Shown: positions 32,359 to 50,267 of the stretch, in pieces
How positions within the stretch are numbered: the first letter of the stretch is position 1
Layout: every line of letters begins with the position of its first letter
Assembly (NCBI RefSeq): GCF_013409365.1
Contig: NZ_JACCBA010000001.1
Coordinates: forward strand, 7,006,001-7,070,000
DNA: 64,000 bases
Source of the DNA: Actinomadura luteofluorescens
Lineage (GTDB): Bacteria; Actinomycetota; Actinomycetes; Streptosporangiales; Streptosporangiaceae
Direction of reading: 5' to 3'
Notes under the pieces: model-generated
What the model saw: only the letters and a program-made list of their open reading frames with translations
Database searches by the model: none
What the model was told of the DNA's origin: nothing
Program-made: the position numbers and the translations under genes

Positions 32359-32973
32359 TTGATCATCTTCGGCTGGCGGGTGGTGTTCTTCACCCTGACC
32401 AGGGGAACCTTCCACTGCCCCGGGTGCGGCGGCGACCGCGAGTACCGCCGCCGGCAGGGGCGCAACTTCTTCACGCTGTTCTTCATCCCGGTCATACCGC
32501 TGACGAAGGCCGGCGGCGAGTTCGTCGAATGCGACACCTGCAAGGGCCGCTGGAACCCCGCCGTGCTCGACGTGCCGACGACCGCGCAGCTCGCGCAGAT
32601 GCCCGCGATGCTGCTGCGCATGGCCATCGCCCAGGTCCTGCGCTCCGGCGACTACACCAACGCGGCCGCCCGCTCCCGCGCCGTCTCCGTCGTCCGGCAG
32701 GCCGGCGAGCCCGGGTACGACGAGCCCGCCCTGGACGCCGACCTCGGCCGTCCCTTCGACGAGGTCCGCGTCGAGATGGCGCGCGCCGCCTCGGCCCTCG
32801 CCCCCGAGGCGCGGGAGAGCATCCTGCGCGCCGCCGCCGAGATCGCGCTGGTCGACGGCCCGCTGACCGTCTCCGAGGAGGAGACGCTGTCCGCCGTCGG
32901 CGCCGACCTGGAGCTGACCCGCGTGCAGGTGACCGGCGTCGTGTCCATGGCCCGCCAGGAGTCGGGGCACTAA
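32359..32973 (+). CDS. Zinc-ribbon / TerB-like protein
   Basis: A 204-residue protein. An N-terminal zinc ribbon (FHCPGCGGDREYRRRQGRNF with a second pair in ECDTCKGRW) surrounds a hydrophobic FFTLFFIPVIPL stretch. The C-terminal part (residues ~110-200, EARESILRAAAEIALVDGPL) resembles a TerB/DjlA-type helical domain. Such proteins are widespread and uncharacterised in actinobacteria. I chose TTG 32359 (MIIFGWRVVFF) because family members begin there and because TAGCAT at 32322-32327 looks like a -10. The ATG at 32326 would overlap that hexamer. It lies directly upstream of the leuS leader. Confidence 0.72.
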   Translation: MIIFGWRVVFFTLTRGTFHCPGCGGDREYRRRQGRNFFTLFFIPVIPLTKAGGEFVECDTCKGRWNPAVLDVPTTAQLAQMPAMLLRMAIAQVLRSGDYTNAAARSRAVSVVRQAGEPGYDEPALDADLGRPFDEVRVEMARAASALAPEARESILRAAAEIALVDGPLTVSEEETLSAVGADLELTRVQVTGVVSMARQESGH

Positions 32974-33001
32974 GTCGCGGCAAGCGGGGTTGCGGTTGCG
33001 C

Positions 33002-33093
33002 TACCCTTTGAGGTATGCCAGCCAGGCTGCTCCTCGAAGGACCGCGTTGACGCACTGACGTCAGCGTGGTGGCCCCTCCTGTGCGAGGGGCCG
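33002..33093 (+). promoter_or_regulatory. leuS leader: candidate ribosome-mediated transcription attenuator
   Basis: A TACCCT hexamer at 33002-33007 precedes an 11-residue leader ORF (33015-33050) with three consecutive Leu codons. A CTGACGTCAG-centred hairpin lies at 33055-33064. An 8-bp terminator stem GGCCCCTC/GAGGGGCC (33071-33078 with 33085-33092), followed by GTTTCAT, ends the leader about 50 nt before leuS. The layout fits control of leucyl-tRNA synthetase by Leu-tRNA supply. Confidence 0.75.
33015..33050 (+). CDS. leuS leader peptide MPARLLLEGPR
   Basis: An 11-codon ORF with ATG at 33015 and TGA at 33048-33050. Codons 5-7 are CTG CTC CTC (Leu-Leu-Leu). The ATG lies 7 nt after TACCCT, so the mRNA may be leaderless. 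Ribosome stalling at the Leu codons would occur about 40 nt before the terminator stem. Confidence 0.7.
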   Translation: MPARLLLEGPR

Positions 33094-33096
33094 TTT
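33071..33096 (+). terminator. Attenuator terminator upstream of leuS
   Basis: An 8-bp GC stem with loop CTGTGC and a following GTTT, in the leader between the peptide stop codon and leuS. It is unlikely to serve the zinc-ribbon gene alone because the leader ORF lies in between. Confidence 0.7.
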
Positions 33097-33145
33097 CATG
33101 TCGGCGGACGGCCACGACCCAGCAGCAGGAACCGGAGTCAGAAGC

Positions 33146-35665
33146 GTGAGCAGCGACGTTCCCCACCGCGCAACGCCGGAGGGTGCAGGGGGGGCGTCCC
33201 CCCTGCACGACGGGTACGACCCACGGGCGGTTCAGGACAAGTGGCAGGCCCGCTGGGAGGAGCTCGACCCGTTCAAGGCGGACGAGAAGGGCACCGCCGA
33301 GGAGCGCCGCTACGCCCTGGACATGTTCCCCTACCCCAGCGGCGACCTGCACATGGGCCACGCGGAGGCGTTCGCCATCGGCGACGTCGTCGCGCGCTAC
33401 TGGTTCCAGCGCGGCTTCAACGTCCTGCACCCGATCGGCTGGGACTCCTTCGGCCTGCCCGCCGAGAACGCCGCCATCAAGCGCGACTCGCACCCGGCCG
33501 AGTGGACGTACGCCAACATCGAGACGCAGGCGGCCTCCTTCCACCGCTACGCGCCGTCCTTCGACTGGACCCGGCGCCTGCACACCTCCGACCCCGAGTA
33601 CTACAAGTGGACGCAGTGGCTGTTCCTGCGCTTCTACGAGCGGGGCCTGGCCTACCGCAAGGGCGGCCACGTCAACTGGTGCCCGAAGGACCAGACCGTC
33701 CTCGCCAACGAGCAGGTCGTCGGCGGGCACTGCGAGCGCTGCGGCGCGCTGGTCGAGAAGCGCGTGCTGACCCAGTGGTACTTCAAGATCACCGAGTACG
33801 CGGACCGGCTGCTGGACGACATGGCGCAGCTGGAGGGCAAGTGGCCCGAGCGCGTCCTGCTGATGCAGCGCAACTGGATCGGCCGCTCCACCGGCGCCGA
33901 CGTCGACTTCGTGATCGAGGGGCGCGACGAGCCCGTCACCGTCTACACCACCCGCCCCGACACCCTGTACGGCGCGACGTTCATGGTCGTGGCCGCCGAC
34001 GCCGCGCTGGCCGAGGAGATCTGCCACCCCGACCACCGCGCCGCGTTCGAGGCCTACCGCGACGAGGTCTCCCGCGAGAGCGAGATCGAGCGGCTGTCCA
34101 CCGAGCGTGAGAAGACCGGCGTGTTCCTGGGCCGCTACGCGGTCAACCCGGTCAACGGCGAGCGGCTGCCCGTCTGGACGTCCGACTACGTCCTGGCCGA
34201 GTACGGACATGGCGCGATCATGGCCGTCCCGGCGCACGACCAGCGCGACCTGGACTTCGCGCTGAAGTTCGGGCTGCCCGTCCGCGTCGTCGTCGAGACC
34301 GGCCTGGCCGACCCCGCCGAGACCGGCGTCGCCACCCCGGGCGACGGCGCGATCGTCAACTCCGGCCCCATCGACGGGCTGACCAAGGCCGACGGCATCG
34401 CCCGCATCACCGGGATCCTGGAGGAGCGCGGCACCGGCCGCGCGTCGGTGAACTTCCGGCTGCGCGACTGGCTGGTGTCCCGGCAGCGGTTCTGGGGCTG
34501 CCCGATCCCGATCGTGCACTGCGAGGCGTGCGGCGAGGTCCCCGTCCCCGACGACCAGCTGCCGGTGACCCTGCCCGAGGGCCTGCGCGGCGCCGACCTG
34601 GCCCCCAAGGGCACCTCGCCCCTGGCCGCCGCGTCCGACTGGGTGAACACCGAGTGCCCCAAGTGCGGCGGCGCCGCCACCCGCGACACCGACACCATGG
34701 ACACGTTCGTCGACTCGTCCTGGTACTACTTCCGCTACTGCTCGCCCGGCTACGAGGGCGGCCCGTTCGACGTCGAGCAGGTCCGCAAGTGGATGCCGGT
34801 CGACCAGTACACGGGCGGCGTCGAGCACGCGATCCTGCACCTGCTGTACAGCCGGTTCTTCACCAAGGTCCTGTACGACATGGGCATGGTCGACTTCACC
34901 GAGCCCTTCACCCGGCTGCTGAACCAGGGCCAGGTGATCAACCAGGGCAAGGCGATGTCGAAGTCGCTGGGCAACGGCGTCGACCTGGGCGAGCAGATCG
35001 GCGAGTTCGGGGTGGACGTCGTCCGCCTGGCGATCCTGTTCTCCGGCCCGCCCGAGGACGATATCGACTGGGCCGACGTGTCCCCGCACGGCATGTCGAA
35101 GTTCCTGACCCGCGTGCACCGGATCGCCGCCGAGGTCGCCTCCCCGCCCGGAGCGGACGTCACCTCCGGCGACGCGGCCCTGCGCCGTGCCACGGCCCGC
35201 ACGGTCGACGAGGCCACCACGCTGGTCGAGACGCAGCGGTTCAACGTCGCCATCGCGCGGATCATGGAGCTGGTCACCGCGACCCGCAAGGCCATCGACT
35301 CCGGCCCCGGCGCCGCCGACCCGGCCGTCCGCGAGGCCGCCGAGGCGATCGCGGTTCTGCTGTCGCTGTTCGCCCCCTACACCGCCGACGAGGCGTGGGA
35401 GCTGCTGGGCCGCACCGCGCCGGTGGTCCGCGCGGGCTGGCCGTCCGCCGACCCGGCGCTGCTGGTGGAGGAGTCGGTCACCTGCGTCGTGCAGGTCGCA
35501 GGCAAGGTCCGCGACCGGCTGGACGTCCCGCCCGGCATCGCCGAGGAGGAACTGGAGCGCCGGGCCCTGGCCTCGGTCAAGGTCCAGGACGCCCTGGCCG
35601 GCGCCGACATCGCCAAGATCATCGTCCGCGCCCCCAAGATCGTCAACATCGTCCCCAAGCGCTGA
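33146..35665 (+). CDS. leuS: Leucyl-tRNA synthetase
   Basis: An 839-residue class Ia synthetase. The HIGH motif is HMGH at residues 69-72 ([15 protein letters not shown]), the KMSKS loop is KAMSKS at 602-607, and the connective-peptide editing domain between them includes [12 protein letters not shown]. The [14 protein letters not shown] zinc-like and tRNA-contact regions are present. It charges tRNA-Leu and edits mischarged tRNA. The GTG at 33146 has GGAG 8 nt upstream. An ATG at 33098 in the same frame would fall right behind the terminator and is less likely. Expression is probably attenuated by the leader described at 33002-33093. Confidence 0.96.
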
Positions 35666-48071: not shown

Positions 48072-49262
48072 ATGAACCGTGGCGAGCGCGGGCGGCGCGA
48101 ATACGAGGGGTTGATGGGGCGCAGGCCCGAAGAGGCGCTCGGTGAGGTGCTCCGGACGTCCCCGCAGATGTTCGAGGCCGTGGTGGAGGGGGCGTTCGGC
48201 GGGGCGCTGGCCCGGCCCGAACTGGGCCGCCGAGCGCGCGAACTCGCCTCCGTCGCCATCATCGCGGCGCTGGGAGGCGCGGAACGCCGTCTCGCCAGCC
48301 ATGTGCGAGGAGCGTTGCGTCAGGGCATCGAGCCGTCCGAACTGCTGGCCCTGTGCGAGCACCTATCGGTCTACGCGGGTTTTCCTCGCGCGCTGGACGC
48401 GCTCGCCGTCGTCAACGGCGTTCTCGAAGAGCAGGGCCTTCCGAAGCCGCCGCTCATGCACCGCGTGGCGCTGGCCGACCACGAGACCATCGTCGCGCAG
48501 AAGGGCGACCACGGACCGGCTGTGATCCTTTCGCACTCTCTGGGCGTGGACTGGCGCATGTGGGAGCCCGTCATGGAACGGCTGGCGAACGGCCGGCGGG
48601 TCTTCGCCTACGACTTCCGCGGACACGGCGGCGCCGCCGGGGCGCCCCGACCGTTCACGATGGACGACCTCGCCGCGGACCTGCTCGGCGTCCTCGACGC
48701 CTTCGACGTGGACCGGGCGCACGTCGTCGGCCTGTCGATGGGCGGCGGCATCGCGCAGACCGTCGCCGTCCGCGCACCCGAACGCGTCGCCTCGCTGGCG
48801 TTGCTCGCCACCACCGACCACGCCTTCGACGCCTTCGAGGGCCGCGCCCGATCCGGCGAGGACGACGGCATGGAGGCGCAGATCGTCCCCACCCTGACGC
48901 GCTGGTTCACACCTGCCGCGCTCGCCACCGACCCCTGGGGCGTCCGGTACGCGCGGGAGCGCATCCGGCGCCTCGACTCCGCCGACTGGGCCGCGGCCTG
49001 GCGGGCTTTCAAGGGCTTGGACGTCCAGGGCAGGATCGCTGGGAAGGACTTCCCGACCCTGGTGCTCGCGGGCGAGGCGGACGCCTCGACGACCCCGGAG
49101 ATCATGTCCGGCATCGCCGAGCGGATCCCGGGCTCGACCTACCGGGAGCTTCCCGGCACGCCGCACATGCAGACCCTCGAACGTCCCGACCTGGTCGCCG
49201 CGGCCCTCGACGACTTCCTCCCCGCCGATCGCCAGAGCCGGCGCCCTCCCCCGCGCGGGTGA
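48072..49262 (+). CDS. Carboxymuconolactone decarboxylase / alpha-beta-hydrolase fusion
   Basis: A 396-residue two-domain protein. Residues ~10-120 are a CMD (AhpD-like) domain (REYEGLMGRRPEEALGEV, RARELASVAIIAALGG, GIEPSELLALCEHLSVYAGFPRALDA). Residues ~130-385 are an alpha/beta-hydrolase with oxyanion SHSLGVDWRMW, nucleophile GLSMGGG and catalytic His in PGTPHM. These are the two activities of beta-ketoadipate steps catalysed by PcaC and PcaD. In actinobacterial PcaL the hydrolase comes first. Here the order is reversed. No other pca genes are nearby, so the role may differ. The ATG at 48072 has GAGGAG upstream. Confidence 0.85.
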   Translation: MNRGERGRREYEGLMGRRPEEALGEVLRTSPQMFEAVVEGAFGGALARPELGRRARELASVAIIAALGGAERRLASHVRGALRQGIEPSELLALCEHLSVYAGFPRALDALAVVNGVLEEQGLPKPPLMHRVALADHETIVAQKGDHGPAVILSHSLGVDWRMWEPVMERLANGRRVFAYDFRGHGGAAGAPRPFTMDDLAADLLGVLDAFDVDRAHVVGLSMGGGIAQTVAVRAPERVASLALLATTDHAFDAFEGRARSGEDDGMEAQIVPTLTRWFTPAALATDPWGVRYARERIRRLDSADWAAAWRAFKGLDVQGRIAGKDFPTLVLAGEADASTTPEIMSGIAERIPGSTYRELPGTPHMQTLERPDLVAAALDDFLPADRQSRRPPPRG

Positions 49263-49319
49263 AGGAGACGCCCCGCGCGGGGGAGGGGCGCCCGCCCTGG
49301 CGGACGGCAGGCTTCGATC

Positions 49320-50267
49320 ATGACGGGAATGCCCGGAGTGATCGGGACGAGATGGGCGGCGGCGCGACGGTTCGGCGGCTACGGCGCCGCCGCGTCGCTG
49401 TCGCTGTATCTGGCGGTCAAGGTCGTGTGGATAGCGGCCGCGGTGCTCGGCCACGTGCCGGCGGATTTCGGCGGCGCGGACTGGATCGTGCTCAACGTGG
49501 TGACGGTCGGCATGTCCGCGACCGGGATCGTGCTGGGTCTCGTCCTGGCACGGGGCATGCGGTGGCGGATTCCAGCCGCGCCCCTGGTCTTCTTCACGTG
49601 GGTTGGCAGCGGCTTCCTGATACCCCTCATGCCGTACAGCCTGGTCAGCGCCGTCCTGGGCGGCGGTGAGGAGGACACCGGCGGCGACGCGGCACCGTCC
49701 TGGGAGCTGACCCTCATCGGCATCGGATTCACCGGCATGGCCATCGGCCTCGCCATCGCGCTGCCCATCTACATGCGGGAACGATGGCCGTCCGCCTTCG
49801 TGGGACGCCTCCCCGACCGCGGGAGAACCACCGTCCGGCGCGCCCGCACGGCCGCCGTCCTCGCCGCCGTGCCGGCCGCGTTCTGGACGCTCTGGTCTGC
49901 AGGCGCGGAACTCGGCCTCGCCCACCGCGACATGATCGACCTGAACGCCCGGCTTCTCCTGGGCGACTCGGCGCTCTGGGCGCTCCTCGGCGCCTGGAGC
50001 GTCCTGGCCGTGAGCTTCGCGCGTCCGAACGTGCCCGCCTGGCTGCCGACGGCTCTCGGGTTCACCGCATCCGGCTCACTTTTCGCCTGGGGCGGCTGGA
50101 GGCTCGCGGTCGCCCTCCTGCGCCCAGGCGGCTACACGCCCGCCGAGCATCCGGTCGCGGCAGTGGCCCTCAACGGCCTAGCCGCCGCAAGCGGCGTCCT
50201 GATGCTGAGCGCCCTTCTGACCTCCGTCCGCCCCTCCGAAGCACCGCCCCGGGTGAACGCGACGTGA
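49320..50267 (+). CDS. Integral membrane protein of unknown function
   Basis: A 315-residue protein with about eight hydrophobic segments (for example residues 22-46, 55-77, 83-110, 128-150, 182-205, 215-232, 240-262, 280-303). I recognise no domain. The motif WVGSGFLIPLMPYSLVSAVLGGG in the third/fourth segment may mark its family. It begins 57 bp after the fusion gene on the same strand, so the two may be co-transcribed. Codon usage matches that of its neighbours. Confidence 0.75.
   Translation: MTGMPGVIGTRWAAARRFGGYGAAASLSLYLAVKVVWIAAAVLGHVPADFGGADWIVLNVVTVGMSATGIVLGLVLARGMRWRIPAAPLVFFTWVGSGFLIPLMPYSLVSAVLGGGEEDTGGDAAPSWELTLIGIGFTGMAIGLAIALPIYMRERWPSAFVGRLPDRGRTTVRRARTAAVLAAVPAAFWTLWSAGAELGLAHRDMIDLNARLLLGDSALWALLGAWSVLAVSFARPNVPAWLPTALGFTASGSLFAWGGWRLAVALLRPGGYTPAEHPVAAVALNGLAAASGVLMLSALLTSVRPSEAPPRVNAT

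Follow-up and report, generated by a model that had tools for sequence, protein, structure and literature searches.

We asked whether the short spacer that precedes leuS, the gene for leucyl-tRNA synthetase, in Actinomadura luteofluorescens holds a leader-peptide attenuator and, if so, how such an element would switch. The locus lies in a window of 64,000 nucleotides (genome positions 7,006,001-7,070,000; positions below are counted from the first letter of the window), which sits in a 9.6-Mb single-contig genome. All features of the locus are on the + strand. The leuS open frame (33098-35665) encodes a leucine--tRNA ligase (TIGR00396, 932 bits), whose nearest named relatives were those of Actinomadura (L001, 91% identity); its start is uncertain. 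Upstream, an open frame extends to 32973; it is weakly zinc-ribbon/TerB-like, neither match reaching its Pfam cut-off. As observed, the spacer contains a −10-like box, TACCCT (33002-33007), located 7 nt 5′ of the ATG (33015-33017) of a leader ORF, MPARLLLEGPR (33015-33050), which comprises 11 residues and the TGA stop (33048-33050) and is probably translated from the RNA 5′ end. The putative control codons are CTG at 33027, CTC at 33030, and CTC at 33033 (Leu-Leu-Leu; 33027-33035). Folding and covariation further showed two hairpins. Helix A, a 12-bp hairpin (33041-33070; arms 33041-33052 and 33059-33070), includes the Pro-Arg-stop codons of the leader within its 5′ arm. It is followed at a distance of 0 nt by a terminator-like G+C hairpin of 8 bp (33071-33096; arms 33071-33078 and 33085-33092), with the loop CTGTGC (33079-33084) and the tail GTTT (33093-33096). 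The 12-codon ORF with three Leu codons, the 8-bp GC stem with its GTTT, and the TACCCT close to the leader ATG had been proposed in a sequence-only reading, and all were borne out at these positions. That reading had also named a CTGACGTCAG hairpin; the 10-mer is present at 33055-33064, but it is not itself a hairpin, as it falls partly in the helix A loop and partly in the 3′ arm of that helix.

Chance controls were then applied to the locus. Counting start and stop, no other ATG/GTG ORF of 8-18 codons on either strand of the 64-kb window contained an LLL run. The fold of 33040-33101 had an energy of −38.7 kcal/mol, compared with a mean of −21.9 for shuffled sequences (z −5.9), and none of 200 shuffles was equally stable; for the whole leader (33016-33101), z was −3.1, and 1 of 200 shuffles was equally stable. 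No T-box or other known RNA family was found within the window by Rfam at the gathering score. Scans of 32500-33500 returned neither a sigma-70 promoter nor a simple terminator, for which 5 T in 8 are needed; the terminator-like stem is conserved, yet its GTTT tail falls below that threshold.

Next, we analyzed conservation in a set of 65 genus genomes, all of which had LeuS. The named Actinomadura records L001-L005 were left out of this set, with their counterparts G047, G044, G045, G061, and G040 included, and L013 (Nocardioides) was excluded from the alignment. A leader ORF preceded leuS in 65/65 genomes. The LLL run was present in 61/65, and the other four leaders had two adjacent Leu (MRARLLDRPR, MPIRLLPERPR, MPARLLPDRPR, and MRSRRLLRPPR). 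The stop codon lay within helix A in 62/65 members, and three leaders (MRARLLLI, MRARLLLS, and MPRLLLD) stopped before helix A, soon past the Leu run. RNAalifold recovered the same two hairpins from the 65 sequences, with a spacer of 0 nt in 61/65 and 1 nt in 4/65. Among the 58 distinct rows, pairing held in 97.9% of cells compared to 93.4% in shuffles, and 83 cells were changed on both sides compared to 24.4 in shuffles, neither value being reached by any of 500 shuffles; double changes occurred in 8/20 pairs, a number reached by 1/500 shuffles. Controls with slid structures gave only 35-64% paired. For helix A, 97.0% of cells were paired, with changes on both sides in 6/12 pairs, whereas the corresponding values for the terminator-like stem were 99.4% and 2/8; six terminator and four helix A pairs were invariant and uninformative for covariation. 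These results indicated that the leader, its Leu run, and both hairpins are conserved in the genus, so that conservation in relatives, the check proposed along with the sequence-only reading, turned out in favor of the element.

The hexamer TAnnnT was kept before the leader ATG in 65/65 members, at a distance of 6 nt (59) or 7 nt (6), which is the position expected of a leaderless transcript. We also observed a [CG]TTGC element shortly 5′ of the −10-like box (32989-32999 in the window) in 65/65 members. This element is too near the box for a normal −35 motif and is possibly a factor site. Two candidates were found for the leuS start, namely, ATG at 33098 or GTG at 33146 behind GGAG. The former is doubtful, because among the 57 members having an ATG directly 3′ of the terminator, it was in frame with leuS in just 22. 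Our guess is that translation starts from the GTG; an in-frame start behind a Shine-Dalgarno-like motif was detected in 32/65 members by a test that also accepts the ATG at 33098.

An actinomycete leuS leader of this type is an already described kind of control region in Streptomyces. Seliverstov et al. (2005, PMC1262725) assigned leuS of S. avermitilis and of S. coelicolor a predicted classical attenuator, and these elements resemble that of the window in that a Leu-codon leader, a hairpin, and a terminator stand directly before leuS. As far as the accessible text of that article goes, its prediction concerned two Streptomyces species and a classical antiterminator, whereas our analysis covers another genus, further lineages, and both LeuS types (see below), with no antiterminator found by folding. 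In addition, the accessible part of an RNA-seq study of S. lividans TK24 (2021, PMC8079986) describes leuL2, MRAVRLLLSEPR, a leaderless frame before leuS with a hairpin and a U stretch. The LeuL2 peptide given there has the RLLL and PR-stop blocks in common with the window leader, but it is one residue longer and differs outside RLLL and PR. The leuL2-type features common to the window and its relatives are RLLL, PR-stop, helix A, and a CCCCTC-loop-GAGGGG terminator. In contrast, the tail past the terminator stem is GTTT in the window and ATTTTT in Streptomyces-like loci. The MRAVRLLLSEPR peptide was also present in two class genomes (G138 and G158), and three loci (L239-L241) whose peptides are MRAVRLLLSEPR or MRAVRLLLSGPR matched covariance model R1 at 54-56 bits.

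The spread of the element across the class was then analyzed with a covariance model built from the 65 genus sequences. In the own genome, this model gave one strong match (E 4e-26), the next best being at E 1.9. A match of 19.5 bits on the minus strand of the window (49261-49353) was rejected as chance; it starts with ATC, has overlapping open frames around it, and contains no Leu run. Among 296 class genomes, 145 matched at E 0.1 or better, a number that includes cimA sites (see below) and weak chance matches. When 66 sources were searched, 63 (window included) matched at E 3e-6 or better, and L161, L250, and L251 showed no match at E 0.5. Outside the window, 61 of 62 elements were analyzed (L290 was dropped, as no stop was read); these include L157, which is genus member G011 and is thus counted twice, and L270, L274, and L276, which have no start codon at the first position of the model. 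In these 61, many of which are near relatives and hence not independent counts, the spacer was 0 nt in 38, 1 nt in 14, and 2-7 nt in 9, and the stop codon lay within helix A in 49. Class leader peptides include MRAVRLLLSEPR, MRAATLLLTGPHRPSRR, and VRGLLLLIGPR.

Of 29 loci taken as best model matches, LeuS was downstream in 28, and one ended too soon to tell. Twelve of the 29 had LeuS of the window's type, 16 had a longer type, and one was unreadable. We observed that the two types (L262-L290) match each other at about 50% identity. The presence of the same attenuator before two LeuS types suggests that the enzyme was replaced behind a retained control region. The leuS leader is not universal; for the Nocardiopsis records L008 and L009, a scan for ATG mini-ORFs showed none of this kind at leuS. 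Extra LeuS copies with leaders of their own were observed in two genomes, MSILNALLLPGPR in G063 (L361) and MQAVQLLLSGPR in G065 (L364), and the mini-ORF scan found no Leu leader for the second LeuS copies in G064, G023, and G089.

We also examined codon usage in the leader. Where genus leaders have LLL (61), Leu codons 2 and 3 were CTC or CTT in 122/122 cases, codon 3 being CTT in 31/61. The third codon was likewise CTC or CTT in 55/55 of the other elements with LLL (CTT in 39). The 62 Leu codons of leuS itself comprised 60 CTG, 2 CTC, and 0 CTT, and three window genes pooled, leuS included, contained 103 CTG, 25 CTC, and 0 CTT. The bias of the leader favors a model in which it would sense through the tRNA-Leu isoacceptor reading CUC/CUU.

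In trp-type attenuation of enteric bacteria, a leader has codons for its amino acid, a terminator precedes the gene, and antiterminator and terminator share sequence. The two hairpins of the window, in contrast, abut without overlap. Folds of the window were calculated with the ribosome footprint assumed at Leu5, Leu6, Leu7, or the stop codon, or with none. Helix A was whole without a ribosome or with the ribosome at Leu5. With the ribosome at Leu6 or Leu7, the outer pairs of helix A were lost, and an inner pair kept a probability of 0.997 or 0.872, respectively. With the ribosome on the stop codon, helix A was lost and the terminator was left. The probability of the outer terminator pair was 0.996-0.999 across all five states. 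In these window folds with ribosome masks, no antiterminator was seen whose pairing would exclude the terminator. The sequence-only reading had proposed leuS attenuation through mutually exclusive stems. This was supported in part: a conserved Leu-run leader, a promoter position compatible with a leaderless transcript, and a terminator-like hairpin match the Streptomyces cases, but the alternative folds gave no sign of mutual exclusion, with the terminator probability being at least 0.996 in every state. Because the exclusive antiterminator looked for here was not found, we did not class the window element as a trp-type classical attenuator. Two other pairings, considered by eye and not computed separately, were rejected as too weak or of wrong logic; one would pair the Leu codons to the 3′ arm of the terminator, and the other would join the 3′ arm of helix A to the terminator loop in a short stem.

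Taken as a whole, the window element is probably an actinomycete leuS leader-peptide attenuator, in which transcription attenuation keyed to charged tRNA-Leu would match the synthetase to leucine supply; stalling, termination, and the response to leucine are the parts of this model that we infer. RNA polymerase would begin on the A of the leader ATG or next to it, as suggested by the promoter position and as reported for S. lividans, and a ribosome would translate MPARLLLEGPR from the RNA 5′ end. With ample charged tRNA-Leu, the ribosome would reach the stop codon and cover the helix A 5′ arm, and the abutting terminator would end transcription. When charged tRNA-Leu, above all the CUC/CUU-reading one, is scarce, the ribosome would stall within the Leu run before reaching helix A, which would then fold and allow polymerase to continue into leuS. 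If stalling raises leuS expression and the two stems coexist, helix A has to impede the terminator mostly by means other than shared bases. The near-constant zero spacing suggests either steric hindrance or a hairpin-stabilized pause. In the former case, the folded helix A at the terminator foot would clash with the terminator closing at the polymerase exit channel. Alternatively, helix A may hold polymerase in a hairpin-stabilized pause while polymerase is in the partly conserved terminator loop. For this last step, we infer clash or pausing.

Several observations weigh against this attenuator model. A ribosome stalled at Leu6 or Leu7 would sit over the outer helix A pairs, the tail is only GTTT and below the threshold of the terminator scan, and, as described above, a few genus leaders stop before helix A (3/65) or have only two adjacent Leu (4/65). 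Folding of the window gave no antiterminator, and the Nocardiopsis records showed no such leader. According to the accessible text of PMC1262725, mutations in the S. coelicolor leuA leader were inconsistent with classical attenuation, and those in the ilvB leader of that species (see below) also count against the model. A trp-type classical attenuator, in which helix A gains a few further pairs with the 5′ arm of the terminator and thereby excludes it, is a rather doubtful alternative. An example of such an extension is the pairing of GG/GGG of codon 9 with CC/CCC of the terminator, and the accessible text of Seliverstov et al. (PMC1262725) states that antiterminator hairpins exist in both Streptomyces leuS leaders. 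Transcripts cut so as to be without the terminator 3′ arm also showed upstream pairing of 5′-arm bases, with 1-3 nt paired in 62/65 genus members (overall range 0-3). In the 61 other elements, such pairing involved 1-7 nt in 23 (1-2 nt in 15 and 4-7 nt in 8, including 7 nt in 4 of MRAATLLLTGPHRPSRR type). Since arm bases pair upstream in these cut transcripts, a limited overlap of helix A and terminator is possible. However, no 5′-arm base paired upstream in 38/61 of the other elements, and the terminator probability of the full-length window transcript never fell below the value of at least 0.996 noted above.

Another explanation, which we regard as unlikely, is that helix A is only a pause hairpin. 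It would then keep polymerase waiting in the terminator loop for the first ribosome and so provide timing and basal termination with no leucine sensing. Partial conservation across lineages was seen for the loop of the terminator but not for that of helix A; the terminator loop reads CTGTGC or CTGCGC in 48/65 genus members and also in other lineages. Applying the pause consensus, a Y-G whose Y has a G nine bases 5′ of it was found 10-12 nt from helix A in 56/65 genus members and 32/61 others, although these counts are not independent and were made without a null model. Furthermore, according to the accessible text of PMC1262725, changes to candidate regulatory codons of the ilvB leader left regulation in S. 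coelicolor unaffected, which is in line with a pause. Nevertheless, the Leu run and its CTC/CTT bias are kept across lineages, and a pure pause needs neither. It is highly improbable that the hairpins simply terminate the transcript of the upstream gene and are unrelated to leuS control. The weakly zinc-ribbon/TerB-like frame does share the strand of the terminator stem and ends 97 nt ahead of it, but the conserved −10-like box and the leader ORF lie between them (65/65), and the element precedes LeuS of two types across the class.

Model matches away from leuS led to the citramalate synthase gene cimA (TIGR00977, 635 bits). A CimA match was present in 61 order genomes, and 42 stretches (30 best loci and 12 hand-chosen; L311-L340 and L349-L360) were examined. 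A short ORF with Ile codons, a hairpin, and a terminator stood before cimA in 42/42 of them, including that of the own genome (L349, C1:2250800-2251400, minus strand). The peptides include MPSQVLIIVRRAG, MRHSLVIIGWRAGS, and MHYGLLIIGRRAG. One (L358, MLSLGIISP) was caught by nothing but a purpose-written pattern, and for several rows, a shorter internal start was chosen by the script. The spacer between hairpin and terminator was 0 nt in 38, 1 nt in 3, and 2 nt in 1. The stop codon was paired in just 19/42, indicating that the hairpin is formed by the last sense codons. No earlier report of a citramalate leader peptide was found in the literature searched, which was one limited library. We also observed leaders with a hairpin adjoining a terminator at ilvB of the own genome (L341, C1:2268454-2270157, minus strand) and at L301, with the peptides MQSTSTILVVLGRRAG and VRRILVLVST. 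Their layout was similar, with 1-2 nt between the hairpins in folds and 2 nt in the own-genome leader. This similar layout, together with the null codon mutations in S. coelicolor ilvB as recounted in the accessible part of PMC1262725, was counted against codon sensing. A common actinomycete design for leuS, cimA, and ilvB, in which a hairpin of the last codons ends at the terminator foot without competing with the terminator for bases and switching occurs by steric block or by a pause that the ribosome releases, is conceivable and is proposed only tentatively.

The attenuator model for leuS thus extends a prediction for two Streptomyces species and a leader from S. lividans to a whole genus and to other class lineages, and covariation accompanies it. 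Exclusive stems, although the accepted picture, do not fit the folds obtained here, which may bear on the null effect of ilvB codon mutations in S. coelicolor.
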